The notes under the pieces were generated by a model, which was not told the DNA's origin, did not search any database, and saw only the letters and a list, made by a program, of their open reading frames with translations. This document shows, in pieces, positions 15,214-33,875 of a stretch of 64,000 nt of DNA (position 1 is the stretch's first letter; every line of letters starts with the position of its first letter). This DNA is from a virus, in the IMG/VR virus record IMGVR_UViG_3300046328_000221, positions 1 to 64,000 of that record. One strand, given 5' to 3'. The position numbers and the translations under genes were made by a program.

Positions 15214-15606
15214 ATGGCTAGAACTTCTGGATACAATGTTGGTGCAATTCCACCTCAAGTTACATGGACAGTCGTTCGTGGAGATACCGCTTCATTTAAG
15301 GTATATGTAACAGATGATGCTAAGCAGCCACTAAATATTCCAGACTGGACAATCTCTATGAAGATTAAGCGTCCAAACTTACTGTCGGATGCTGGAGTAA
15401 TTACAGATGATGCAACACTAAAGTTTACCCTAACTCCAGAACAAGATCCAGATGACTTGCCTGGAGAATTTACAGTTTTTCTATCTGATACAGAGTCTGT
15501 AGAGTTAGCAACAGGAGATATTTTTGATATCCAGCTATCACAGGTAGGAACTGTATGGACAGTTGCCCAGGGTAAAATGATTATCCTGGAAGATGTAACT
15601 GACTAA
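15214..15606 (+). CDS. BppU-like baseplate/tail protein, copy 2 (130 aa)
   Basis: Reads VTWTVVRGDTASFKVYVTDD near residue 17-36 and ends QGKMIILEDVTD. Same fold pattern and near-leaderless promoter as the copy at 12104, so the two operons look like a duplicated module (BppU-like protein, then fibre). Predicted all-beta virion protein; role in fibre attachment is inferred. Confidence 0.65.
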   Translation: MARTSGYNVGAIPPQVTWTVVRGDTASFKVYVTDDAKQPLNIPDWTISMKIKRPNLLSDAGVITDDATLKFTLTPEQDPDDLPGEFTVFLSDTESVELATGDIFDIQLSQVGTVWTVAQGKMIILEDVTD

Positions 15607-15917
15607 TGGCTCAAGCTGTAATTAGAGATTCTAAAAATAATGTTTTACAAAATTTAGCAGATAAATCTGCCAGGAATACAAAGATATCCCCTATTGATCA
15701 TAATTCAGTAGTTATAGATATAAGCAATAAGACAAAAAATGTTAAAGCAAAAAACTACCCTATTACTAAGATAAATGATATTGTCAGAAATGTAGCAATT
15801 AATCAGGTATTGCCTTTTAGGATTAAGTTTACAACAGTTACTATTCCAGGATATGGTCCAAACAACCCTGCACCAATTGGAATTGCTGTTATTGGAGTAA
15901 ATAATTATATCCTATAA
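15606..15917 (+). CDS. unknown tail-region protein (103 aa)
   Basis: MAQAVIRDSKNNVLQNLADK, basic, beta-rich, ends AVIGVNNYIL. TAATG coupling with the BppU-like gene. No known domain; a structural or assembly protein by context. Confidence 0.6.
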   Translation: MAQAVIRDSKNNVLQNLADKSARNTKISPIDHNSVVIDISNKTKNVKAKNYPITKINDIVRNVAINQVLPFRIKFTTVTIPGYGPNNPAPIGIAVIGVNNYIL

Positions 15918-15950: not shown

Positions 15951-17816
15951 GTGACTACAAATAGCAAGAACTTTAAAGTTAAGAATGGCTTAGATGCCAC
16001 TGGAACCATAACTGGCCTTGACTTGGTATCTACTGCATCTTCTGGTAATGAAGGTGGAGAGATTCGTCTTGCTACCGCTGCAACTGGGTCAACCCTTACA
16101 GCAGGCACAGTTACTATTGATGTTTTTCAAAACAAGCTTCGTATTTTTGAAACAGGTGGAACTAATCGTGGAGCATACATTGACCTGTCTGCTGCAACTA
16201 CTGGAGTAGGATCAAACCTTTTATCTGGCGGCGGTGCTGGAACTGTAACAAGCATTACAGCAGGAACTACAGGGCTAACTGGTGGCACCATCACCTCATC
16301 TGGAACTATTGATATTGATACTACAAAAGTACCAAGACTTTTAACAAACACAAATACTTTTGCTGCAAGCACGGGTGCAACAACACTTATAGTAAAACAA
16401 GGTGCAACACAAAGCACTACAAGCTTGCAAGAATGGCAGGATAGTGCTGGAACTATTTTATCAAAAATTAGCTCAAGCGGTGCACTCAATGCCACATCAA
16501 TTAGTAACACGGCAAATACTGGTCCTGTAATTACACTTTCATCAAATCAGTTAAGAATTGATACTAGAGCCGTTGGTTCGGTTGGTCTTATTGTGAAGGG
16601 CACAGCTTCTCAAACAGCCTCACTACAAGAGTGGCAGGATTCTACTGGGACATTAATGTCCTATATAGATTCATCTGGAAGTTTCAAGGTGGGTCCGACA
16701 GGTACATATGCCTCAATCGGTTCAACTGGAACTATTGGTATGTCATATGGGACAATTAATGGCAACCTTGGTGGAACCATGTTGTCCATTACTTCTAACA
16801 ACGTAGCAAATGCTGGAATAAAGATAAAGTCAATTGCCAGTCAAACTGCCAACATGGTAGAAATTTTAAATAGTACTGGAACTACAGTTGTATCTAAAAT
16901 CGACACTACTGGAAATATTACTGGCGCTTCATTTGTAAAGACCAGTGGAACATCAACTCAGTTCCTAAAGGCAGATGGTTCTGTAGATTCATCTACATAC
17001 TTAACTTCAGCAGTAACATCAATTGCTGGAACAACTAATCAAATAGCAGTTTCAGGAGCTACTGGATCTGTCACGTTATCTCTTCCAACTGCAGTTACAG
17101 TAGATACTATTAATGTTACTACTCTAAATGTTTCGGGTACTCAAAATATTTTTGATGTTACAAACCTATCAGTAACAGACTCTTTAATTTATCTAGCAGA
17201 TAGTCAATTTGATGCAGATGTTCTTGATATTGGTATTTATGGAGCATACGGAGATGCAGGTGCTGGACATTTCCATACTGGATTAGTCCGTGATGCTACT
17301 GACGGTATTTGGAAATTAGTTTCTGGAACACCTGAGCCAGCTAGCAATGTTGTTAATTTTACTGGTGCAACGTATGACACGTTACTTGCAGGATCATTTA
17401 AGAAAAATGGTGGTACATCAAGTGAATTCCTAAAAGCAGATGGTTCTGTAGATAGTAGCACATATTTGACTACAGGAAATGCATCTTCTACATATGCACC
17501 ACTAGTATCTCCATCTTTCACAACGCCATCTCTGGGTGAAGCAACCGCTACCTCTATCAATAGCACGACTATTCCATCAAGTGCTACCTTAATTACCACT
17601 ACTTCTGGAACTGCATTATTAGCAGCAGATATTGCTGGAGGAACCGCTGGTCAAATTCCATATCAGTCTGCAGCAGACACAACTGTGTTTATAGCTACTG
17701 GAACTGCTGGACAGGTTTTAACATCAAATGGAACATCTGCTCCTACTTGGAGTACTCCATCTGCTTCTGTAGCCAGCACAGATTTCTCTCCGATCTTTAT
17801 GATGATGGGGGCTTAA
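15951..17816 (+). CDS. tail fibre protein (621 aa)
   Basis: GTG start with GGGGAAG ribosome site. N-terminus SKNFKVKNGLDATGTITG matches the opening of the fibre at 26561 (NKDFRLKNGLVVGGL), a shared attachment segment. The rest is Ser/Thr/Gly-rich with repeats such as FLKADGSVDSSTYLT (twice, about 345 and 500), TGATTLIVKQG and LQEWQDS(A/T)GT repeats, typical of elongated trimeric fibres. It ends GTSAPTWSTPSAS then a short tail. Directly followed by the propeller gene family. Confidence 0.8.
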   Translation: MTTNSKNFKVKNGLDATGTITGLDLVSTASSGNEGGEIRLATAATGSTLTAGTVTIDVFQNKLRIFETGGTNRGAYIDLSAATTGVGSNLLSGGGAGTVTSITAGTTGLTGGTITSSGTIDIDTTKVPRLLTNTNTFAASTGATTLIVKQGATQSTTSLQEWQDSAGTILSKISSSGALNATSISNTANTGPVITLSSNQLRIDTRAVGSVGLIVKGTASQTASLQEWQDSTGTLMSYIDSSGSFKVGPTGTYASIGSTGTIGMSYGTINGNLGGTMLSITSNNVANAGIKIKSIASQTANMVEILNSTGTTVVSKIDTTGNITGASFVKTSGTSTQFLKADGSVDSSTYLTSAVTSIAGTTNQIAVSGATGSVTLSLPTAVTVDTINVTTLNVSGTQNIFDVTNLSVTDSLIYLADSQFDADVLDIGIYGAYGDAGAGHFHTGLVRDATDGIWKLVSGTPEPASNVVNFTGATYDTLLAGSFKKNGGTSSEFLKADGSVDSSTYLTTGNASSTYAPLVSPSFTTPSLGEATATSINSTTIPSSATLITTTSGTALLAADIAGGTAGQIPYQSAADTTVFIATGTAGQVLTSNGTSAPTWSTPSASVASTDFSPIFMMMGA

Positions 17817-17819
17817 TCC

Positions 17820-19007
17820 ATGGCAATATATTATTCAGTCTTAGGACAGGTACAGCCAACAAGCACTGCAGAAACAGACTTATATCGTCCACAAGGATCT
17901 GCAATCGTTTCTACTTTGGCAATTACCAATACTTCAGATTATCAATCAAATGCTAGCGTATATATAAATACTGGATCTACTCTTTCAGATGCAATTAACT
18001 GGGTTCCTATAAATGCAAATATAGGAACTAATATTATTTATACTGTTGCTTATAAAAATGGTCTTTATTTTGCTGCTAGCAGTAACGGTGTCTATTCAAC
18101 CTCTACAGATGCCGTTGTATGGACTACAAGAAGTATGCCAGTAGGTACAAATATTATTAAAGGTATTGCTTATGGAGCAGGGGTCTATGTCGCTGTTGCT
18201 CAATCAGCAGCTGCCTCATCAACAGATGGCATTACTTGGGTAACTCGAAATATTGGTTTGGGCGGTATTGCTAATACGGTAATCTTTTCAAATGGGCTAT
18301 TTATTGCAGCAGGGTCTGGACCCTCCATTGGCAATATGAAAATTTCTACAGATGGAATTACGTGGACACCAAGATTTGTCCCTGGAACCACGATAACAGA
18401 AATTCTTTATGAAAATGGCATATATATTGCATCTGCATATCAAGGTGTGGTATATACATCTACAGACTCTATTACCTGGTCAACCCGTGACACTGGTATT
18501 GGAACAAGCGATATTCTTGCTATGGGATATGGAAATGGTATCTTTGTTGTTGGAGCTAGGAATAGAGCAGTGGCCACATCTACAGACGGAATTACTTGGA
18601 CAACTCGTAATCCTAATTTAACCACTGTAGGTAATATTAATGAAATTAGTTTTGGAAACAACACATATATAATAGTTGCAGATACTGGTAATATATCTAC
18701 CTCAACAGATGCAGTAACTTGGTCGCTCCGCACATCTAATTTTGGAACATCAAATATTAATTCAATATCTTACAATGATGGACTATTCTTAGCTGGAGGA
18801 GCAGGAGGTACAATGAGAGCTAGTTTTGGTGGTAACTATGATGCATCATCTAGTTCAAATGCTATTTTATATAATACTCCAATTTCTCCAAAATCAACGG
18901 TACCTTTAACAATAGGAATTGCTTTAGAAAACACAAATAAGATATCTGTGCAGTCAAGTATGCCAAACACTTTAACCTTTAATGTATTTGGGAGCGAGAC
19001 AATATAA
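17820..19007 (+). CDS. tail protein with inserted seven-bladed Asp-box propeller (395 aa)
   Basis: Residues 1-50 (MAIYYSVLGQVQPTSTAETD ... ITNTSDYQSNASVYI) and the last 55 (ILYNTPISPKSTVPLTIGIA ... LTFNVFGSETI) match the two halves of the small protein at 20218. Between them are seven repeats of about 40 residues, each with an STDGITW(T/V)TR-type strand: tryptophans at about 61, 101, 140, 181, 220, 260 and 301. STDGITW is a one-residue-short Asp box (BNR) motif, so a seven-bladed beta-propeller is predicted. Blade loops read YGNGIFVxGxxG. Probable receptor-binding lectin-like tail protein. No sialidase catalytic Arg triad is evident. Confidence 0.75.
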   Translation: MAIYYSVLGQVQPTSTAETDLYRPQGSAIVSTLAITNTSDYQSNASVYINTGSTLSDAINWVPINANIGTNIIYTVAYKNGLYFAASSNGVYSTSTDAVVWTTRSMPVGTNIIKGIAYGAGVYVAVAQSAAASSTDGITWVTRNIGLGGIANTVIFSNGLFIAAGSGPSIGNMKISTDGITWTPRFVPGTTITEILYENGIYIASAYQGVVYTSTDSITWSTRDTGIGTSDILAMGYGNGIFVVGARNRAVATSTDGITWTTRNPNLTTVGNINEISFGNNTYIIVADTGNISTSTDAVTWSLRTSNFGTSNINSISYNDGLFLAGGAGGTMRASFGGNYDASSSSNAILYNTPISPKSTVPLTIGIALENTNKISVQSSMPNTLTFNVFGSETI

Positions 19008-20218
19008 TGGCAACTTTATACAAAGTTTTAGGAATAGCAACACCAGTAGGAAATACAATCCTCACTGGACCATATGCACCAGCAGAATCCATAATATCTT
19101 CTTTAGTAATTTGCAATACTACATCAAATATAGCTAAAGCCAATGTTTATATTCAAAAATTTGGAGATGCTATTACTTGGACTACTCGTAACTCAAGCTT
19201 TGGAACAACTGGAATTACTGCTCTAACCTATCCAAATGATATTTCAATTGATCCAATATTTGTAGCAGGAGGTGCTAGCGGAACCCTAGCTACCTCAACA
19301 GATGGAATTACTTGGACTCTTAGAAATTCTGGATTTGGAGCTAACGCAATTTCGGCTTTAGCTTATGCAAGCTATTCAGGAACTTACATTGCAGCTGGAG
19401 CTTCAGGTACGTTATCTACAAGTAATGGCGGTATTGTGTGGACCACCCGTACCTCCACTTTTGGAACTACTGCAATTAATGCTTTAACTTCTGGCAATTT
19501 TATACTAGTAGCTGCTGGAGCAGCTGGCCAAATTAGAACATCTAGCGATAATGGGATTACTTGGGTAACAAGAACATCTAATTTTGGAACATCATCAATA
19601 AATGCACTAACTTTTGGAAATGGAATCTATGTAGCAGCAGGTGCTGGTGGTGCCATAAGAACTTCAACAGATTCAATTACCTGGACTACTAGACTTTCTG
19701 GCACAACAGCAAGCTTTGCTTCTCTAACATATGGAAATGGTATATATGTAGCTGGTACATCAACTGGGGTTCTAGTTACATCTACCGATTCAATTACATG
19801 GTCTACAAGATCTGCAAACTTTGGAACATCTGCAATCTCTGCATTAATATATAATGATATTTCTGGTATTTATGTTGCTGCAGGGTCAGGTGCAGCTAAT
19901 GCACAAATGTCTACCTCAACAGATGGTATTACTTGGACTACTAGAAGCATCACTCTAGCATCTAATACCGCTACTGCATTAACTTATGGAAATTCTGGAG
20001 GAACCTACCTTGTTGCAGGAGCTAGCGGTAGCTTGTCAATGTCTGGAAATTATACTACTGGAATAACAACACAGATATTGTCAAACTACAGTATTCAGCC
20101 AAATGACACAAAAGTACTAACTTTGGGAATTACTTTAGACTCTAATGACTATATTACAGTTAACTCATCAATAAATTCTGCACTTACCTTTACTGCTTTT
20201 GGAAGTGAGATTTCATAA
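19007..20218 (+). CDS. tail protein with inserted seven-bladed Asp-box propeller (403 aa)
   Basis: Same plan as the gene before: scaffold N-half (MATLYKVLGIATPVGNTILT ... VYI), seven W repeats, scaffold C-half (ILSNYSIQPNDTKVLTLGIT ... LTFTAFGSEIS). One blade carries SSDNGITW, the canonical Asp box SxDxGxTW, while the others have the shortened STDxITW, which ties the family to Asp-box propellers. TAATG coupling on both sides. Likely binds a surface glycan; specificity unknown. Confidence 0.75.
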   Translation: MATLYKVLGIATPVGNTILTGPYAPAESIISSLVICNTTSNIAKANVYIQKFGDAITWTTRNSSFGTTGITALTYPNDISIDPIFVAGGASGTLATSTDGITWTLRNSGFGANAISALAYASYSGTYIAAGASGTLSTSNGGIVWTTRTSTFGTTAINALTSGNFILVAAGAAGQIRTSSDNGITWVTRTSNFGTSSINALTFGNGIYVAAGAGGAIRTSTDSITWTTRLSGTTASFASLTYGNGIYVAGTSTGVLVTSTDSITWSTRSANFGTSAISALIYNDISGIYVAAGSGAANAQMSTSTDGITWTTRSITLASNTATALTYGNSGGTYLVAGASGSLSMSGNYTTGITTQILSNYSIQPNDTKVLTLGITLDSNDYITVNSSINSALTFTAFGSEIS

Positions 20219-20571
20219 TGGCAACTACATATAAAATTTTAGGTCAGTCTACACCAGTAGTAACTTTTGCGACTAATCTTACTGCTGGGCTAATAACACT
20301 ATTTTCACAATCTTGTGTAGTATCGACTGTAACAATAACAAACACAACACCTTTGCCAGTAGTATATAGTATTTATATTGCTAGAAATGGATCTTCTACA
20401 ACAAATGAGTCTACTGCATTAATATATCGTCAAACTATAAATCCATATGATATAATTCCATTAACGATGGGAATCACTTTGGGATTTATAACTGGATCAG
20501 ATAATATCTATGTTCAATCAGAAACAGCCTCAGCACTAACCTTTATGGCATTTGGGAGCAAAATTAGCTAA
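20218..20571 (+). CDS. propeller-free scaffold tail protein (117 aa)
   Basis: MATTYKILGQSTPVVTFATN ... VTITNTTPLPVVYSIYI is followed directly by ALIYRQTINPYDIIPLTMGI ... LTFMAFGSKIS. This is the flanking domain of the two genes upstream with no propeller in the middle. It defines the insertion point between the VYI strand and the ILYN strand. Predicted small beta-sandwich virion protein that may pack with, or compete with, its propeller-bearing relatives. Confidence 0.7.
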   Translation: MATTYKILGQSTPVVTFATNLTAGLITLFSQSCVVSTVTITNTTPLPVVYSIYIARNGSSTTNESTALIYRQTINPYDIIPLTMGITLGFITGSDNIYVQSETASALTFMAFGSKIS

Positions 20572-22634
20572 TGTCGATTAATGAGCTTGGTGTTAAAGTT
20601 TCTGGATCTTCAATTGGATCTGTTGGGACAATATTCTCAAAAGTCTATAACGGAACTTTTGATAGAAAAGTTTATAATGAATATGTAGATATTCCTACTG
20701 GAGAATATTCTATTTATATAAATACCCAAGGCACAGAAGGAAATACAACGGTAGACCTATCTGACTCACAGGGAATAGAGCAAAAAAGGTATACAGTTGC
20801 AAATAACACATCAACTACTGACTATTTTTATTTTAAAGAAGTTGTAGACACTGTCCCTTTTAATAGTCTTTCAGCATGGACTACCAGAGCTTCTAATATA
20901 TCAAGTTCAAAACCTATAGCATATTCTGGAAATCTGTATGTTATTGGAGGCTCTACTGGTCAGTTATCAACATCTACAGATACTATTACTTGGGTAACTC
21001 GCAATGCGAACTTTGCAACATCTTCAATAAATGCAATTACTTTTGGAAATGGAATTTTTGTTGCAGGTGGTGCAGCAGGATGGCTCACCACATCCACAGA
21101 TGGAATTACTTGGACAACTCGTGCAGCAAACTTTGCAACATCAGCAATTAATGCTTTGATTTTTGGAAATGGAATTTTTGTTGCAGGCGGTGCAGGTGGA
21201 CTAATCAGAACTTCCACAGATGGAATAACTTGGACTACTAGAACAAATAGCATGAACATCAACGCAGTTCAAGGTCTTGCTTATGGCAATGGAATTTATG
21301 TAGCTGCTGGTGCTTCTGGAAATATCTCTACTTCCACAGATGGAATAACTTGGACTACCAGATATACAAACTTTGGTACATCAACAATAAATGCAGTTAC
21401 TTTTGGAAATGAGATTTTCTTAGCTGGAGGAGCAGGAGGAGCTTTAGTTACTTCGACAAATGGAATAACTTGGACACAAAGAAACAGCTCTTCGGGAAAT
21501 GTGGATATTGCTGGTCTAGCATATGGAAATGGAACATACTTTTTATCAAACACTAGTGGATTTGTAAATGCCTCAACAGATGGAATTACTTGGAGTACAA
21601 GTAGTGCACCATTATTATCAGGAGGCCCACTACTATTTGGACCACATGGACTAGTCTCTATAGGAAATCTAGCTTCAGGTATAATTGCAACAGCTCAATT
21701 ACAAAGATCACAATTATCAAATGTATCTACAACATTAGCAGATACTGGAGTTTGGACTACCCGTACAGTAAACTTTGGAACGTCTACAGTACAATATCTA
21801 ACATATGGTAATGGATTATACCTTGCTGGAAGCTCTGGTGGATTAATCTCAACATCTGTAGACTCTGCTACTTGGACAACACGTGTATCTGGTTTTACAA
21901 CTGCACAAACAGTGTATGGGATAACTTATGGAAACGGACTCTATGTCGCAGTCGGTGGTCAGACATCAACCTCTTCTAACATTTCTACTTCTACAAACGG
22001 AACCACTTGGACAACTAGATCACATGCTTTTGCAACTAATGCCATTCTTTCAGTATGCTATGGCGGAGGTTTGTATGTTGCAGGTGCTCAGGGCGGACTT
22101 CTAGCTACCTCAACCGATGGAATTACCTGGACTACAAGAAGTGCTAACTTATCCACCAACCAGGTTCAGGCTCTTTTTTATAATAATGGACTATACCTTG
22201 CAGCAGGGGCAACAAACACGTTATCGACCTCAACCGATGGAATTACCTGGACTACAAGAAGCGTCACTGGAACTATAGCATCTATTACTTTTGGAAATGG
22301 TAAATATCTAGCTACTGCTGGAACTGGATCAATTATAACATCTACGGATGGAATAGCTTGGACAATATCTACACCCCCAATCTTTCTTAGCTCAAATCTT
22401 TTTTCATCAACATATGCTAATGGATATTATCACGTATCTGGTGTCAACGGAAATATTTTTATTTCATCTGATCTAACATATTGGTCAAAACGTGAAGTAA
22501 GTCTTGGAACAAACACTGTTCAGTCACTTACCTATGGAAATGGAATATTTTTGGCTGGTGGTCTTGGAGGGGTACTGTCAACAAGAACTCAAGGAAAAGT
22601 TTTAGTTCAAATATCTAAGTTAGGGACAGTGTAA
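20571..22634 (+). CDS. tail protein with two seven-bladed propellers (687 aa)
   Basis: N-terminal domain of about 95 residues (MSINELGVKVSGSSIGSVGT, different from the scaffold above). Then fourteen W repeats that fall into two groups of seven, separated by a linker without repeats (about 345-385, ASGIIATAQLQRSQLSNVST). Each group starts with a bare WTTR strand and then six (S/T)(T/V)DxxxW strands, so two propellers in tandem. The last residues (VLVQISKLGTV) probably complete the N-terminal domain. Highly repetitive at DNA level. Likely receptor binding. Confidence 0.75.
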   Translation: MSINELGVKVSGSSIGSVGTIFSKVYNGTFDRKVYNEYVDIPTGEYSIYINTQGTEGNTTVDLSDSQGIEQKRYTVANNTSTTDYFYFKEVVDTVPFNSLSAWTTRASNISSSKPIAYSGNLYVIGGSTGQLSTSTDTITWVTRNANFATSSINAITFGNGIFVAGGAAGWLTTSTDGITWTTRAANFATSAINALIFGNGIFVAGGAGGLIRTSTDGITWTTRTNSMNINAVQGLAYGNGIYVAAGASGNISTSTDGITWTTRYTNFGTSTINAVTFGNEIFLAGGAGGALVTSTNGITWTQRNSSSGNVDIAGLAYGNGTYFLSNTSGFVNASTDGITWSTSSAPLLSGGPLLFGPHGLVSIGNLASGIIATAQLQRSQLSNVSTTLADTGVWTTRTVNFGTSTVQYLTYGNGLYLAGSSGGLISTSVDSATWTTRVSGFTTAQTVYGITYGNGLYVAVGGQTSTSSNISTSTNGTTWTTRSHAFATNAILSVCYGGGLYVAGAQGGLLATSTDGITWTTRSANLSTNQVQALFYNNGLYLAAGATNTLSTSTDGITWTTRSVTGTIASITFGNGKYLATAGTGSIITSTDGIAWTISTPPIFLSSNLFSSTYANGYYHVSGVNGNIFISSDLTYWSKREVSLGTNTVQSLTYGNGIFLAGGLGGVLSTRTQGKVLVQISKLGTV

Positions 22635-23833
22635 TGGCAATATCTGACATATCAAATACTAAAAGTTTATATAACCCAACTGGCGGATCTGGATTAGTTT
22701 TTTCTAAAATTATCTATGGTCCATGGAATCCAAATGCCTCAACATTGTCATATAGTATGACTAATCCAATGTCCTCTGGAAATTATATTGTGTATGGTGC
22801 AAAAACTCAGGGAGCAAATCCATTGGTAGTATCCGTCTTGGATCAGTCTGGAGCACTACTCGGATCATACACCCTTCCATTATTATCATCTGGAGCAACA
22901 AACACACTTATAGATATTCCAAATATGGCATCTACAGTAACAGCAACATATACTGGGACAGCCTGGACTACTAGAACCTCTGGATTTGGTGTCTCAGCAA
23001 TACTTGCGTTATCTTACTTTAATGGCCTATTTGTTGCAGGAGGTGCAGGTGGAGCACTAACCACTTCAACAGATGGAACTACTTGGACAGCAAGAACATC
23101 AACTTTTGGAACATCTCAAATTCAAGCTCTTACCTATGGAAATGGATTCTTTGTTGCAGGAGGGGCAGGCGGCCAGATCAGAACTTCTACAGATGGTATC
23201 ACATGGGTAACAAGAACTGCTAACTTTGCTACTAATGCTATCAATGCTCTTACTTATGGAAATGGTCTTTATGTGGCTGGTGGCAACTTTGGACAATTAA
23301 CGATATCAACAGATGCTATTACATGGGTAACTAGAAATGCAAATTTTTCAGCATTATCTGGAATCAATGCTCTTGCTTATGGTAATGGAGTATTCCTTGC
23401 AGGTGGCTCAGCAGGATGGCTTACCACATCTACAGATGGAATTACGTGGACTACTAGAAATGCAAACTTTTCTTCTGGAAATGATATCCTATCTATTACC
23501 TATTTCAATGGATTATATATAGCAACTGGTCAATCTGGAAATCTTACAACTTCTACAGACACCATTACATGGGTAACTAGGTCATCAGTAATTGGCGGTA
23601 GCATTTCTGCTAGTGCTTATGCAAAAGAATCATATGTGATTGCTGGATCCTCTGGACTTATGGCTACTTCAACAGACGGAATAACTTGGACATCAAGAAA
23701 TGCAAATTTTGCAACATCTACGATAAATGCTATAACTTTTGGAAATAACATATTTGTGGCTGGTGGTGCAGGAGCATGGATGACTACCAACGAAACTGGA
23801 TTTTCTGGAATTTTTCAAATTTATCAAATATAG
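22634..23833 (+). CDS. tail protein with one seven-bladed propeller (399 aa)
   Basis: N-terminal domain (about 1-112, MAISDISNTKSLYNPTGGSG) is like that of the preceding gene (shared FSK(I/V)(I/Y) and IPxG/SSGNY blocks). Then come seven W repeats, beginning TAWTTRTSGFG and followed by six STDxxTW strands. The C-terminus closes with GIFQIYQI, probably the last strand of the N-terminal domain. Last of five genes linked by one-nt TAATG overlaps. Confidence 0.75.
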   Translation: MAISDISNTKSLYNPTGGSGLVFSKIIYGPWNPNASTLSYSMTNPMSSGNYIVYGAKTQGANPLVVSVLDQSGALLGSYTLPLLSSGATNTLIDIPNMASTVTATYTGTAWTTRTSGFGVSAILALSYFNGLFVAGGAGGALTTSTDGTTWTARTSTFGTSQIQALTYGNGFFVAGGAGGQIRTSTDGITWVTRTANFATNAINALTYGNGLYVAGGNFGQLTISTDAITWVTRNANFSALSGINALAYGNGVFLAGGSAGWLTTSTDGITWTTRNANFSSGNDILSITYFNGLYIATGQSGNLTTSTDTITWVTRSSVIGGSISASAYAKESYVIAGSSGLMATSTDGITWTSRNANFATSTINAITFGNNIFVAGGAGAWMTTNETGFSGIFQIYQI

Positions 23834-23870: not shown

Positions 23871-24545
23871 ATGACAAAACCACATGTAAATTTAATTATT
23901 GCAACTCCTGGCCATTCTATGATGACTAGTTACGTTCGTAGCCTATTGGCTGCTACCCAACTTTTATCATCAAAGGGGATTACCTGGGCGTGGAGTTCTG
24001 AATATTCTTCTCACGTAGCAGATGCTCGTGAAATGACCATGAACGGTGATAATCAAAATGATCCTTCAGAAATGCGACCATTTAAGGGAGAGATTACATA
24101 TGATAAGATCCTTTGGATTGATTCTGACATTGCTTTTGCCCCTGAAGATGTTATTAAAATGTATGAATCAGATTATGATGTAGTTTCTGGTGCATACTTG
24201 CTGGCTTCTGGAGAATGTGTAGTCTACAAAGAACTATTTGGGCAAGGATATTCATTTGAAGAAGTAAAGAAAATGACTAAGCCCGTCAAGGTATTTGGAG
24301 CTGGATTTGGATTTCTTTGCGTAAAGCAGGGCATCTTTGAGAAGCTAACTCGTCCATGGTTTCAGTCTCCAATGGCATCTAAAACTATGTCTAACGGAGA
24401 AACCTTTACTTTCCCAATCATGGGCGAAGACCTTTCGTGGTGCAAACGTGTAAATGACTTAGGTTACGAGATTTGGTTTGATCCATCAGTCAAGGTAACA
24501 CACCATAAAATGATGAAGTTAACTTGGGATGGAATTCTTCCATAA
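23871..24545 (+). CDS. GT-A type glycosyltransferase, family 2-like (224 aa)
   Basis: NLIIATPGHSMMTSYVRSLL at the start and KILWIDSDIAFAPEDVIKMY (about 81-100) with a DSD metal-binding motif define a nucleotide-sugar GT-A fold. Downstream DYDVVSGAYL and MGEDLSWCKRVNDLGYEIWF fit the acceptor-side motifs (ED.....R). Related phage and cyanophage proteins carry the same 'DSD.....VV.G.Y' layout. It starts an operon with a GT-B enzyme and a methyltransferase. Substrate unknown: tail fibre Ser/Thr residues or a cell-surface polymer. Confidence 0.75.
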   Translation: MTKPHVNLIIATPGHSMMTSYVRSLLAATQLLSSKGITWAWSSEYSSHVADAREMTMNGDNQNDPSEMRPFKGEITYDKILWIDSDIAFAPEDVIKMYESDYDVVSGAYLLASGECVVYKELFGQGYSFEEVKKMTKPVKVFGAGFGFLCVKQGIFEKLTRPWFQSPMASKTMSNGETFTFPIMGEDLSWCKRVNDLGYEIWFDPSVKVTHHKMMKLTWDGILP

Positions 24546-25501
24546 TGTTTATTAGTGATCTAACACCAAAAATTATAAATATTCCTCAGTTTCAGTATGA
24601 TCCAAACCAGTCTGGTGGAACAGAATATATGGCAAAGAATGTTTTAGTTAATATTCTTCCAGATTTACCCAAGTTTAAAAATTATGATTGCATAGTTATT
24701 CCTGGAATATTTGATCACAAAATTAATACTGGAAAGCAAAGACTTATTTGGCTGCACAATTACCCATATGAATTCTTTGAGGGGCAGATTGAGCTTTTAA
24801 AATCTATCATTAGGGAAGAGCGAACCAAATATGTTATTGCTGTTTCAGAAACTCAAAAAAAACGACTAGTAGATTATTTTGAGTTACCAGAAGAAAAAAT
24901 CTATGTGCTTCCAAATGCCATCTACCCATTGCCAACTAATTTAAATAAATTTAATAATGTAGACAACATTGAATTAATTCATCTTTCTTCTCCAGAACGA
25001 GGTATGGAAATTCTTCTTACAGCATTAAAGTATACAAAAAAAGAGTTTATCCTACGTATATTTAATAGCTATTACCCTGGTATGAACGAAGAATTTAAAG
25101 ATCTAATTGATGATAATAGGGTTATTTTTTATGGTAAAACTCCTCAAAAAACTTTATTTAAATACTTTGCTAACGCACATATTCATGCCTATCCATCTAC
25201 ACATCCAGAGACTTTTTGCTTATCACAGGTAGAGGCTATGAGTGCTGGATGTCTTAATGTATTTAGTACACCAGAAAACGCATCCTTGACAGATATAACA
25301 AACGGCTTTGGAATTAATGCTAAGTTAGGGTATAATAATTTAGAAGAAGATGCAAAGAAATTTGCTAAATCTCTAGATCAAGCAATTGATTTAATAAAAA
25401 GCAACAAGTTTAATCCAGAAGAAGAGATTAGCTATGCTAATAATACCTTTTCCTGGGAGGCAGCAAAAGAAAATTGGACCAAGTTCCACGAACTACTATA
25501 G
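24545..25501 (+). CDS. GT-B type glycosyltransferase, family 4-like (318 aa)
   Basis: Start at 24545 overlaps the previous stop (TAATG). Motifs: GGTEYMAKNVL near the N-terminus, AVSETQKKRLVDYFELPEEK (acceptor/linker), LPNAIY, LIHLSSPERGMEILLTAL, and the C-terminal HAYPSTHPETFCLSQVEAMS with the E-x7-E type signature of GT4 enzymes. Transfers a sugar from a nucleotide donor. Works with the GT-A neighbour, perhaps extending the same glycan. Confidence 0.8.
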   Translation: MFISDLTPKIINIPQFQYDPNQSGGTEYMAKNVLVNILPDLPKFKNYDCIVIPGIFDHKINTGKQRLIWLHNYPYEFFEGQIELLKSIIREERTKYVIAVSETQKKRLVDYFELPEEKIYVLPNAIYPLPTNLNKFNNVDNIELIHLSSPERGMEILLTALKYTKKEFILRIFNSYYPGMNEEFKDLIDDNRVIFYGKTPQKTLFKYFANAHIHAYPSTHPETFCLSQVEAMSAGCLNVFSTPENASLTDITNGFGINAKLGYNNLEEDAKKFAKSLDQAIDLIKSNKFNPEEEISYANNTFSWEAAKENWTKFHELL

Positions 25502-25509
25502 GAGATAAA

Positions 25510-26073
25510 ATGGCATCATCATCAAGAGAAGGCAAGCCTGAGACTCGTCAATGGATTAAAGACAACAATATTAAGACTATCTTAGATATTGGACCTGGAA
25601 TTGGCAACTATTCAGACCTACTCAAGTATGGTCGCCTAGAAGATCCCGATAAAGGATATTCGGAATATCCAGTAATGAATGATATTTTTATTGACAAAAT
25701 TGATGCTGTGGAGATATGGGAGCCATATGTTGAAATGTTTGGTCTTAGAGATAAGTACAATGCTATTAATATATCTGCAGCACAAGACTGGACTGACTGG
25801 AACTATGACCTTGTAATTTTTGGAGATGTTCTAGAGCATATGACAAAAGAAGATGCCATCAAGGTCTGGGAAAGATGTTCTAAACAGGCAAAACATGCAA
25901 TCATATCTATTCCTATTATTCATCACCCACAAGGTCCATCGGATGGAAATCCATACGAAACTCATCTAAAAGAAGACTGGACAACACAAGAGGTTCTAGA
26001 AACTTTTAAAGGAATTCATAGCCATGAAGAATATCATATCGTAGGCGTTTTTTATGCCACCTTCAATAACTAA
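25510..26073 (+). CDS. SAM-dependent methyltransferase (187 aa)
   Basis: GGAG ribosome site at 25501 sets the start at 25510. Class I motif I ILDIGPGIGNYSDLL (about 24-38), then the acidic AVEIWEPYVEMFG after beta 2, and DLVIFGDVLEHM for motif IV. Small-molecule or sugar methyltransferase type, not a DNA methylase (no DPPY or PC motif). Third gene of the sugar cassette, so it may cap or modify the glycan. Confidence 0.8.
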   Translation: MASSSREGKPETRQWIKDNNIKTILDIGPGIGNYSDLLKYGRLEDPDKGYSEYPVMNDIFIDKIDAVEIWEPYVEMFGLRDKYNAINISAAQDWTDWNYDLVIFGDVLEHMTKEDAIKVWERCSKQAKHAIISIPIIHHPQGPSDGNPYETHLKEDWTTQEVLETFKGIHSHEEYHIVGVFYATFNN

Positions 26074-26098: not shown

Positions 26099-26545
26099 AT
26101 GGCTAAAATTTCTATCAATGACTTAAAAGATAAGTTTGAAACAGGGGATAGACCAACTGGAGCAGATTACTCTGATCTAATTGATACCCTTATATCTCAG
26201 GCTACAGATTTAGGGACAAATGGTAATAATGACCTAGAAATATCGGGTATTGAGAATGTCACTGTTCTTGAGACTTTAGTAGCTTCTGAATGGCGTATAG
26301 TAAAATACCTAGTATCAATTTCAAAAACTTCTAATGGTGATAATAAATTTTATGCTACAGAGATTTCCATTCTTATTGACGGTACGAATATAAACGTTAG
26401 TGAGTATGGTGTTATAGACAACGATGGGGATATTGGAACCGTTGATGTCTCAAGGAGTGGGGATAACATTCAATTAATTATTACCCCCAATCCTGCAGTT
26501 AAGCCAGTTACCGTGCGATTTGCTCGTATGGGACTTAAGGCGTAA
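26099..26545 (+). CDS. small tail protein sharing a C-terminal domain with the big fibre (148 aa)
   Basis: MAKISINDLKDKFETGDRPT then GADYSDLIDTLISQA, an N-terminal segment common in phage tail proteins. The C-terminal half (YLVSISKTSNGDNKFYATEI ... VRFARMGLKA) aligns by eye with the last 80 residues of the next gene (KVLVISDGTNFYVTQYGDVS ... TSVKVSGTLIAA). So the two share a fibre-tip or attachment domain. Confidence 0.65.
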   Translation: MAKISINDLKDKFETGDRPTGADYSDLIDTLISQATDLGTNGNNDLEISGIENVTVLETLVASEWRIVKYLVSISKTSNGDNKFYATEISILIDGTNINVSEYGVIDNDGDIGTVDVSRSGDNIQLIITPNPAVKPVTVRFARMGLKA

Positions 26546-31500: not shown

Positions 31501-32751
31501 ATGTCTATATCTAAAGCCCACTGGAATACGGAGGGAGACAATGTTCGTCTCTCTATGCCGTTTAGCAAGGTCGATGCGGAGCGTCGCATCGTCTCTGGTT
31601 TTGCCACACTTGACAACATAGATCGTCAAAAGGATATCGTTACAGCAGAAGCTTCTCTTGAGGCATTCTCAAAGTTTCGTGGTAACATTCGTGAAATGCA
31701 CCAACCACTAGCAGTTGGCAAAATGGTTTCATTCAAAGAAGACAAGTACTTTGACCCTGAGACAAAGAAGTTCTATTCAGGTGTATACGTATCAGCATAT
31801 GTTTCTAAGGGTGCTCAGGACACATGGGAAAAGGTTCTAGATGGAACTCTATCAGGATTCTCTATTGGTGGCAAGATGAACACCTGGGATGACGCATATG
31901 ACGAAAAGATGGATTGTGCAATTCGTGTTATTAAGGCATATGACCTCACAGAACTATCTTTGGTAGATAGCCCAGCAAATCAGTTTGCAAGTATTCTTTC
32001 TGTAGAAAAGGTAAACGGAGTTGATACCCTAAAGGGTGAAGCCGTTGATACTATTATTGAAAATGTTTTCTATGACAAAGACTCTGGTCTTGTAATGTTG
32101 TCAGAAAACGAAGTTGAGGTAAGCCCTACTTCTGGGATACCAATGACTAACATAGGTTTCGTTGAGAAAAATGATAACGAAAAAACAGATATGATAAAGT
32201 TCTTAATTGATAGTGCTAAAGGCATTAACACAGTTGAGATTAATAAGGAGGCAAACACTATGACAGATGAAAACGTAAATGTTGACAATGTTGAAGTCGC
32301 TCCAGAGGCAGATGCCGTAGTTGAAGAAACTACTACAGATGTTGTTGAGAAGTCAGACACAGTCGAGACTTCAGATGCAGCTGAAGAAGTAGTTGTAGAA
32401 ATTCCTGCAACTGAAGAGGTATCTCAGTCAGAAGAAGTAGAAGCTGAAAAAGCTGATGCAATTGCTGACTTAAAGAATACACTTACATCAGCCTTTAGCG
32501 ATATTACTGCAGTAGTTAAATCACTTAGTGAAGAAGTTGCTGCACTAAAGAAGTCAAACGAATTATCAGCTGCAAAACTTGCAGATGCTGAGGGAGACTT
32601 TGAAAATCTTGGAAAGCGTATCGATGCAGTTGAGGCTGATACTGCTTTCCGTAAGTCTGGCGATCTCGGAGAGATTGTACAGGAACCAGCAATGGTTGAA
32701 AAATCAGTATGGGGCGGACGTTTCCTCACAACATCCGATCTACTAAAGTAA
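31501..32751 (+). CDS. prohead protease fused to scaffold (416 aa)
   Basis: Residues about 15-160 fit the HK97 gp4/XkdF-type prohead serine protease: VSGFATLDNIDRQKDIV, His67 in REMHQPLAVGK, Ser121 in SGFSIGGKM and Glu151 in LTELSLVDSPAN. The spacing suits a His-Ser-Glu triad. From about 250 the sequence is acidic and coiled-coil (ALKKSNELSAAK), as expected of a scaffold (delta) domain. An internal ribosome site and in-frame ATG separate the two parts. Processes capsid and scaffold during head maturation. Confidence 0.85.
   Translation: MSISKAHWNTEGDNVRLSMPFSKVDAERRIVSGFATLDNIDRQKDIVTAEASLEAFSKFRGNIREMHQPLAVGKMVSFKEDKYFDPETKKFYSGVYVSAYVSKGAQDTWEKVLDGTLSGFSIGGKMNTWDDAYDEKMDCAIRVIKAYDLTELSLVDSPANQFASILSVEKVNGVDTLKGEAVDTIIENVFYDKDSGLVMLSENEVEVSPTSGIPMTNIGFVEKNDNEKTDMIKFLIDSAKGINTVEINKEANTMTDENVNVDNVEVAPEADAVVEETTTDVVEKSDTVETSDAAEEVVVEIPATEEVSQSEEVEAEKADAIADLKNTLTSAFSDITAVVKSLSEEVAALKKSNELSAAKLADAEGDFENLGKRIDAVEADTAFRKSGDLGEIVQEPAMVEKSVWGGRFLTTSDLLK
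32260..32751 (+). CDS. putative in-frame scaffold protein from internal start (163 aa)
   Basis: ATG at 32260 is codon 254 of the protease frame and is preceded by AAGGAGG at the ideal distance of 7 nt. The product (MTDENVNVDNVEVAPEADAV onward) is acidic and coiled-coil, the properties of a scaffolding protein. The arrangement is the same as lambda C/Nu3, where the scaffold is made from an internal start. Inferred, not proven. Confidence 0.6.
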   Translation: MTDENVNVDNVEVAPEADAVVEETTTDVVEKSDTVETSDAAEEVVVEIPATEEVSQSEEVEAEKADAIADLKNTLTSAFSDITAVVKSLSEEVAALKKSNELSAAKLADAEGDFENLGKRIDAVEADTAFRKSGDLGEIVQEPAMVEKSVWGGRFLTTSDLLK

Positions 32752-32780
32752 ATCAAAAGAATCACTTGGAGGTGAAAATA

Positions 32781-33875
32781 ATGTCGGAAGAAATAATCAA
32801 AAACAATCCTGCTCCAACCAGCTATCCTAATGCGGATGGTGGTTTTGCTGCAGGTGGTATTGGGGGAGTTGACTCTCCAGCCTTTGCGTTCCTGGGAAAT
32901 ACAGCAACAGCAGAGTTCGGAGAAACTAGCGGTCCAAACGCAGTTAACCCATCATTTACCGAAAGCCCAAATTACCCAGGTGCTGGTATCCTACGTCCTG
33001 ATCAAGCTCGTCGTTTTATCGACTATGTTTGGGATGCTACCACACTTGCTAATGATGGTCGTCGTGTAACAATGCGAGCTAACACAATGGAACTTGAGAA
33101 AGTTAACGTTGGAGAGCGTGTTGTACGTGCTGCAAATCAGGGTGATGCATCATTCACAAACGCTGGAGCAACTTTCAGCAAGGTAGAGCTTACCACAAAG
33201 AAGCTACGCCTTGACTGGGAAGTTTCAGCAGAAGCACTAGAAGACAACATTGAAGGTGGTGCTCTTGAGGATCACATAGTACGTCTTATGACTACTGCTT
33301 TTGGTAATGACATCGAAGATCTAGCGATCAACGGTGACACCGATTCAGCAGATGCGTTCCTTGGCATCATGGACGGTTTCAACAAGAAGATTGCAGCAGA
33401 TGGTTTCGGTAACGAAGCTGTTGTATCTGCAGGTTCAAACTGGACCGTAGAAGACATGCAGAAGCTTATCCTTGCCTTGCCTCGCCGTTACCGTGCGATT
33501 CAGTCAGGACTTAAGTTCTATGCAGGATCAGACACATTTGCTAACATCGTAAAGAACAACGGTACCGTATTTGATTCAATTGGATCAACTGAGGCTGCTC
33601 GTGGATCATACCTTGGAGGAATCGATCAGACTTTCGGAAACGCTCGTCAGACTCGTGTTCTAGGTATTCCAGTTCTAGAGGTTCCTTACTACCCTGCGGA
33701 TTATGTAGACCTTACATTCCCACAGAACCGCATCTGGGGCTTCCAGCGTGACATCACTGTAAACCGCTTCTATGTTCCTAAGAAGGACACAATTGAGTAC
33801 ACCGTATTCGTACGTTTTGGTATCAATTGGGAAGAGCAGGATGCAGTTGCATGGGCAGCAAAGCCAGCTTCATAA
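32781..33875 (+). CDS. major capsid protein, HK97 fold (364 aa)
   Basis: GGAGG ribosome site before 32781. LRPDQARRFIDYVWDATTLA (about 72-91), then ELTTKKLRLDWEVSAEALED and GALEDHIVRLMTTAFGNDIED match the N-arm, E-loop and spine helix of HK97-like capsids of long-tailed actinophages. FYVPKKDTIEYTVFVRFGIN near the end is the P-domain strand region. More GC-rich and codon-biased than its neighbours, as expected of a highly expressed gene. Followed by a terminator. Confidence 0.92.
   Translation: MSEEIIKNNPAPTSYPNADGGFAAGGIGGVDSPAFAFLGNTATAEFGETSGPNAVNPSFTESPNYPGAGILRPDQARRFIDYVWDATTLANDGRRVTMRANTMELEKVNVGERVVRAANQGDASFTNAGATFSKVELTTKKLRLDWEVSAEALEDNIEGGALEDHIVRLMTTAFGNDIEDLAINGDTDSADAFLGIMDGFNKKIAADGFGNEAVVSAGSNWTVEDMQKLILALPRRYRAIQSGLKFYAGSDTFANIVKNNGTVFDSIGSTEAARGSYLGGIDQTFGNARQTRVLGIPVLEVPYYPADYVDLTFPQNRIWGFQRDITVNRFYVPKKDTIEYTVFVRFGINWEEQDAVAWAAKPAS

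Follow-up and report, generated by a model that had tools for sequence, protein, structure and literature searches.

The 64,000-nucleotide stretch of viral DNA analysed here (the window) carries, between 17820 and 23833, an array of five overlapping genes, most of them filled with repeated tryptophan strands. The locus raises the question of what these repeats are built on and what such a row of related genes could be doing in a phage. Our findings point toward a mobile phage adhesin cassette whose exchangeable propellers are displayed on a small virion adaptor, a reading that we consider probable.

Layout of the array

A preliminary description of this DNA had read the five genes as tail proteins made by inserting seven-bladed Asp-box propellers into one small scaffold. 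Its coordinates proved exact in our ORF check, and the one-nucleotide TAATG overlaps are present at all four junctions (19007, 20218, 20571 and 22634). Because of these stop-start overlaps, coupled translation of the array genes is suggested. Upstream, a gap of 3 nt separates the stop of fibre gene 15951 from the first array gene (17820). The features considered below are the following, genes being named by their first nucleotide:

15606..15917, +: left conserved flank of the variable slot, 103 aa; homologues in L195, L196 and L197 beside an empty or differently filled slot
15951..17816, +: fibre-like gene immediately upstream of the array, C-terminus ...SPIFMMMGA; comparison of termini
17820..17984, +: scaffold N-terminal part, gene 17820-19007; half-profile and excision tests
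17985..18833, +: seven-bladed propeller in scaffold loop, gene 17820-19007; seven Trp units
18849..19004, +: scaffold C-terminal part, gene 17820-19007; half-profile and excision tests
19007..19162, +: scaffold N-terminal part, gene 19007-20218; half-profile and excision tests, model strands 2-50
19163..20044, +: seven-bladed propeller in scaffold loop, gene 19007-20218; seven Trp units, 28 model strands, Foldseek
20066..20215, +: scaffold C-terminal part, gene 19007-20218; half-profile and excision tests, model
20218..20571, +: stand-alone scaffold, 117 aa, without propeller; stand-alone homologues in viral contigs, phiPsal1_021
20571..20873, +: N-domain of the double-propeller protein, non-scaffold; no scaffold match, 33% identity to N-domain of L222 gene 7895
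20877..21746, +: first seven-blade propeller, gene 20571-22634; Trp units
21753..22592, +: second seven-blade propeller, gene 20571-22634; Trp units, full-length fourteen-unit homologues in L049 and L222
22634..22963, +: N-domain of gene 22634-23833, non-scaffold; no scaffold match, weak match to L222 gene 10082
22964..23788, +: seven-bladed propeller, gene 22634-23833; seven Trp units, DUF6242 above Pfam cut-off
23871..24545, +: glycosyltransferase-like gene (phrog_1574); 83% identity to L222 counterpart
24524..25501, +: second glycosyltransferase (phrog_2170); PHROG match
25474..26073, +: possible methyltransferase; Pfam score under the cut-off
26099..26545, +: right conserved flank of the slot; 54-67% identity in L195, L196 and L197, weak tail/baseplate PHROGs

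The row sits among fibre genes 12487, 15951 and 26561, outside the head block, and is followed by the genes for head, tape measure and minor tail proteins. The nearest isolate portals to that of the window belong to Streptomyces phages (~45% identity). As for head gene 32709-33875, its matches in two relatives contain one in-frame stop, and, as this ORF runs over the protease gene, its true start may lie downstream of the start codon used.

A small scaffold, bare and interrupted

The 117-aa protein encoded by 20218 has about 100 relatives in IMG/VR (94), most of them stand-alone and of about 100-118 aa; its best isolate match is gene 021 of Pontimonas phage phiPsal1 (phiPsal1_021), annotated as a putative virion structural protein. 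Half-profiles of this scaffold match residues 1-47 and 342-393 of 17820, and residues 1-45 and 352-402 of 19007. In line with this, both proteins split cleanly around the propeller in a blind alignment with 33 stand-alone homologues. Once the propeller is excised in silico, 17820 and 19007 score 85.8 and 72.1 bits against the scaffold profile, as compared to 84.0 bits for the intact 117-aa protein and <5 bits for shuffled controls, those made from these very sequences staying under 2 bits. Three array proteins thus match the profile over its whole length, either contiguously (20218) or after excision (17820, 19007). At the sequence level, these scores agree with the earlier proposal that the 117-aa protein corresponds to the joined flanks of its two neighbours, that is, to the scaffold without its insert.

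The proposal that one scaffold serves all five genes stands for 17820, 19007 and 20218, and fails for the other two. Against the scaffold profile, the flanks give 1.1 bits for 20571 and 3.3 bits for 22634, which is noise, so that the scaffold is common to three of the five array genes only. The other N-domains carried by 20571 and 22634 are weakly alike (E 0.003); a kinship with N-domains of other scaffold-linked adhesins was considered and rejected (E 1.8 or no match).

At the gene ends 19007, 20218 and 20571, respectively, GGGAGCGAG, GGAAGTGAG and GGGAGCAAA encode the conserved FGSE/FGSK end of the scaffold. Lying directly before the overlapping start codon, these stretches may double as ribosome-binding site.

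An AlphaFold2 prediction of 19007 (35-sequence alignment, mean pLDDT 73, the best of five models by a clear margin) shows an eight-strand scaffold domain (residues 2-11, 16-19, 27-37, 43-50, 354-363, 368-377, 382-387 and 393-402), with 28 propeller strands (7x4) between scaffold strands 43-50 and 354-363. Together with the excision test on 17820 and 19007, this model backs the claim that whole seven-bladed propellers are inserted into a small scaffold. In Foldseek searches against the PDB, seven-bladed WD40 proteins reach TM 0.75-0.80 (target-normalised; rmsd 3.1-3.5), and the eight-bladed Tako/Ika designs lie below them (~0.61-0.65); against BFVD, a 299-aa phage DUF6242 protein is found at 0.86. 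The top PDB sequence match, Ika8, is a designed eight-bladed WD40-derived protein and fits the 19007 model worse than the seven-bladed ones do. The closed seven-bladed rings predicted for the array are therefore seen for 19007 only, as seven four-stranded blades in a model of moderate confidence. For 20571, a two-sequence alignment gave no usable model, and its two closed propellers are consequently predicted from the repeat count and the homologues.

Blades, closure and exchange

The earlier count of tryptophan units was accurate: seven each in 17820, 19007 and 22634, fourteen in 20571 and none in 20218, giving 35 blades spaced 37-54 aa apart, mostly ~40. The box S-x-D/N-x-x-x-W occurs six times in 17820, five in 19007, twelve in 20571, six in 22634 and not at all in 20218, compared with at most three per protein in shuffled controls (2000 shuffles each). 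The array blades at large do not have the canonical Asp-box spacing (S-x-D-x-G-x-x-W); as already noted in the preliminary description, it is found in one of the 35 (SSDNGITW, in 19007), the remainder being one residue shorter or degenerate. Against Pfam DUF6242 (cut-off 29), 20571 scores 62.3, 22634 scores 31.5, 17820 scores 26.9 and 19007 scores 23.6. A D-A-I-T-W-like strand opens each propeller and is absent from its final unit. Propellers are typically closed by a 1+3 arrangement of strands, and the opening strand and the shortened last unit are such a closure.

Seven is also the preferred number elsewhere. Among 79 complete ORFs of related phage proteins the modal contiguous run is seven blades (63 runs), followed by 29 single-blade fragments and 12 runs of eight; seven blades are present in 36 of these ORFs and fourteen in 10. 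An alignment query against viral contigs retrieved at least 339 stretches confirmed as propeller; searches of these contigs with 20571 alone and with 17820 alone gave no matches. Two giant propeller proteins were also observed, one of 2985 aa with ~60 blade matches (L089:2897-11854) and one of at least 3701 aa with 76 (L232:1-11106).

Blade identity is 0.44 within and 0.43 between propellers, and 0.433 at the same index and 0.427 otherwise; blades group weakly by propeller, not by index, and certain 120-nt copies reach 79% identity, whether in one gene or across genes. As blade identity tracks neither propeller nor position, exchange of blades by recombination is likely.

The cassette in other phages

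A second cassette is found in an unrelated phage, L222 (IMGVR_UViG_3300032323_000894):

gene 5102: scaffold
gene 5434: 701-aa protein, scaffold enclosing two seven-blade propellers
gene 7539: scaffold, 47% identical to 20218
gene 7895: fourteen-blade protein, 34% identical to 20571 over 717 aa
gene 10082: one-propeller protein, 37% identical to 22634
gene 11456: glycosyltransferase, 83% identical to 23871

The order (scaffold, scaffold with inserts, scaffold, fourteen-blade, seven-blade, glycosyltransferase) is that of the window, with the difference that two propellers stand at two loops of one scaffold. In the 701-aa protein the scaffold pieces cover residues 1-20, about 314-359 and about 653-701, and excision of both propellers yields 57.9 bits against the scaffold profile. 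L222 also differs in having sheath-like genes (an apparent tail sheath gene, judged by eye), and no homologue of the window portal, head protein or polymerase was found in its record, which may be incomplete.

The scaffold thus occurs in other phages both with propellers (L222) and without them (the stand-alone homologues). In L049, L217, L224, L227 and L261 a scaffold gene is followed by a propeller gene with a 1-nt overlap, and elsewhere the scaffold forms the N-terminal domain of proteins that continue into collagen or RCC1 repeats. In L072:2001-3962, for instance, scaffold and RCC1 repeats, a different propeller kind, make up one 653-aa protein. Glycine-rich genes account for 37 of the 74 genes next after a scaffold (42 of 583 other genes), and a 1-nt overlap joins 48 of the 74 to the scaffold (64 of 583 others); these counts include related phages, the events not being independent. 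In L033 and L022 the locus holds five to six paralogues of the scaffold, and several of these have a 1-nt-overlap glycine-rich adhesin gene directly after. At L269:8978-11215, three consecutive ~250-aa genes with faint scaffold similarity at both ends follow a propeller gene and a glycosyltransferase.

The interval between the homologues of 15606 and 26099 varies among phages closely related to that of the window. L195 and L196 have polymerases 76-85% identical to that of the window phage; the interval is empty in L195, as it is in L197, and in L196 it is occupied by a fibre, a gene of 171 aa and three glycine-rich paralogues. Such differences between close relatives are direct evidence that genes are exchanged at this position. 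Relatives identified through the portal had no propellers or scaffolds in the stretches examined. The modular, swappable character attributed to the array on first reading is upheld by this slot, by the double insertion in L222 and by the alternative appendages elsewhere.

The upstream fibre and the adjacent glycosyltransferase

The N-terminus of fibre 15951 (KNFKVKNGLD) resembles by eye that of the L196 fibre. A hydrophobic ...PFLLMGA-like end is present in 37 of 61 genes directly upstream of scaffolds and in 12 of 1130 control genes. Such ends are seen in 15951-17816 itself, and in L011, L026, L062, L222, L227 and others. This end is a possible docking peptide; part of its coding stretch could also be the ribosome-binding site of the next gene.

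In the loci examined, all 47 homologues of 23871 (window gene included) have a propeller gene no more than five genes away. This association carries some bias, as propellers were used to collect the loci and some of these are close copies of one another; none of the homologues was found in scaffold-seeded loci. The family (phrog_1574) stands beside propeller genes in many phages (L199-L272), sometimes as two tandem copies, and related genes are present in cyanophages too. Serine and threonine make up 25-31% of the five array products, compared with 9-22% of seven other window proteins. In this regard, we hypothesize that the propellers could be glycosylated by the neighbouring glycosyltransferase.

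A model for the array

Drawing on the domain anatomy, the insertions, the gene order, the variability of the slot and the occurrence across phages, we propose that a ~110-aa beta-sandwich virion protein, the scaffold, serves as adaptor. One loop of this scaffold holds a whole seven-bladed propeller of Asp-box type in 17820 and in 19007, 20218 is the bare scaffold, and 20571 (two propellers) and 22634 (one) are separate probable propeller adhesins on other N-domains. The scaffolds would sit on tail or fibre, carrying or docking propellers that bind several host-surface glycans, and the adjacent glycosyltransferases may decorate the Ser/Thr-rich array proteins. The cassette is found in unrelated phages, the slot being empty or filled by other adhesin types in relatives. 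We infer tail location and receptor binding from the neighbouring fibre genes, from precedent and from the homologue that bears the annotation virion structural protein.

Alternatively, the propellers could be enzymes, namely depolymerases resembling sialidases or glycosidases, whose main task would be to cleave glycans on the host surface and not to bind them; we regard this as unlikely. Matches to BNR_2 (E 0.00046) and to the NCBIfam glycosylhydrolase family F510_1955 (E 2.9e-9), together with a phage protein named xyloglucan hydrolase among the structural matches, speak for an enzyme; all curated enzyme-family cut-offs were missed, however (20.1 vs 31.4 for BNR_2, 36.6 bits vs 175 for F510_1955). 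Moreover, the blades are near-regular and almost without charged residues (3-5% acidic), no recurrent catalytic site was seen in them, and arrays of up to dozens of blades suit binding better.

The scaffold could instead be a capsid decoration protein, with propellers on the head holding the phage, for example, to surfaces or extracellular polymers. This is conceivable because 20218 resembles the head decoration family phrog_5204, but the match is weak (E 0.022), the array stands among fibre genes and not in the head block, and elsewhere the scaffold comes before glycine-rich adhesins and after fibre-like genes, all of which makes a capsid position very unlikely. Functionless drift, in which propellers expand and jump by blade recombination and the insertions are chance products, fits the lack of blade grouping described above but is hardly credible, given that counts remain seven, frames remain open, and an unrelated phage, whose proteins are 34-47% identical, keeps the five-gene order with an extra insertion.

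Within the preferred reading of a mobile cassette of adaptor and propellers, a wider proposal is offered more tentatively. The array might exemplify a general, undescribed display system of aquatic phages, made of a fibre with a conserved ...PFLLMGA end, a small scaffold and an adhesin, the latter being either the product of the overlapping gene that follows or an insert in scaffold loops. Asp-box propellers, RCC1 propellers, collagen and glycine-rich folds would plug into one adaptor, the cassette would move between phages whether or not these have sheath genes, and the propellers would be modified by a dedicated glycosyltransferase.

Comparison with known systems

Propeller-bearing phage adhesins are already known, those of phi11, PRD1 P2, PhiKZ gp131 and the endosialidases among them (PMC4901313). 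In Staphylococcus phage phi11, a beta-propeller is the presumed glycan-binding part of the receptor-binding protein Gp45 and, as in the window, is closed by its N-terminal strand; it is, however, five-bladed and lies in line within one trimeric protein, with neither insertion into a small scaffold nor a paralogous array (PMC4901313). The propeller of Pseudomonas phage PhiKZ gp131C (4GBF) is the C-terminal domain of one protein, without scaffold insertion (PMC4901313). The phiPsal1 gene 021 and the stand-alone IMG/VR family share the full-length scaffold with 20218 but have no inserted propeller. Conversely, DUF6242 (20571 and 22634 score above its cut-off), BNR/Asp-box propellers and Ycf48 are alike in blade sequence and fold, whereas most boxes of the window are one residue shorter than the Asp box and the known proteins lack the scaffold. 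In a catalogue of contractile injection system tail fibres, swappable binding domains, propellers included, stand on conserved baseplate-anchoring domains; these fibres differ in being domain chains at a single locus, and no propellers nested in a 110-aa adaptor were found in the passages covered (PMC12923769). The literature searched, which covered few subscription journals, gave no account of propellers nested in a phage scaffold, which is weak evidence of absence.

Together, propeller adhesins are known and the nested-insertion architecture looks new. Previous phage propeller adhesins were described singly; here propellers stand inside the loops of a 110-aa adaptor, beside bare adaptors, in two window genes and twice in one gene of an unrelated phage. 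The array is thus a natural example of nested-domain display with a traceable adaptor family. It also marks a locus of adhesin exchange, between the homologues of 15606 and 26099, and therefore the evolution of attachment in uncultured phages could be traced in metagenomes. The array, with its recurrence in an unrelated phage, points to a plug-in system for changing what a phage holds on to.
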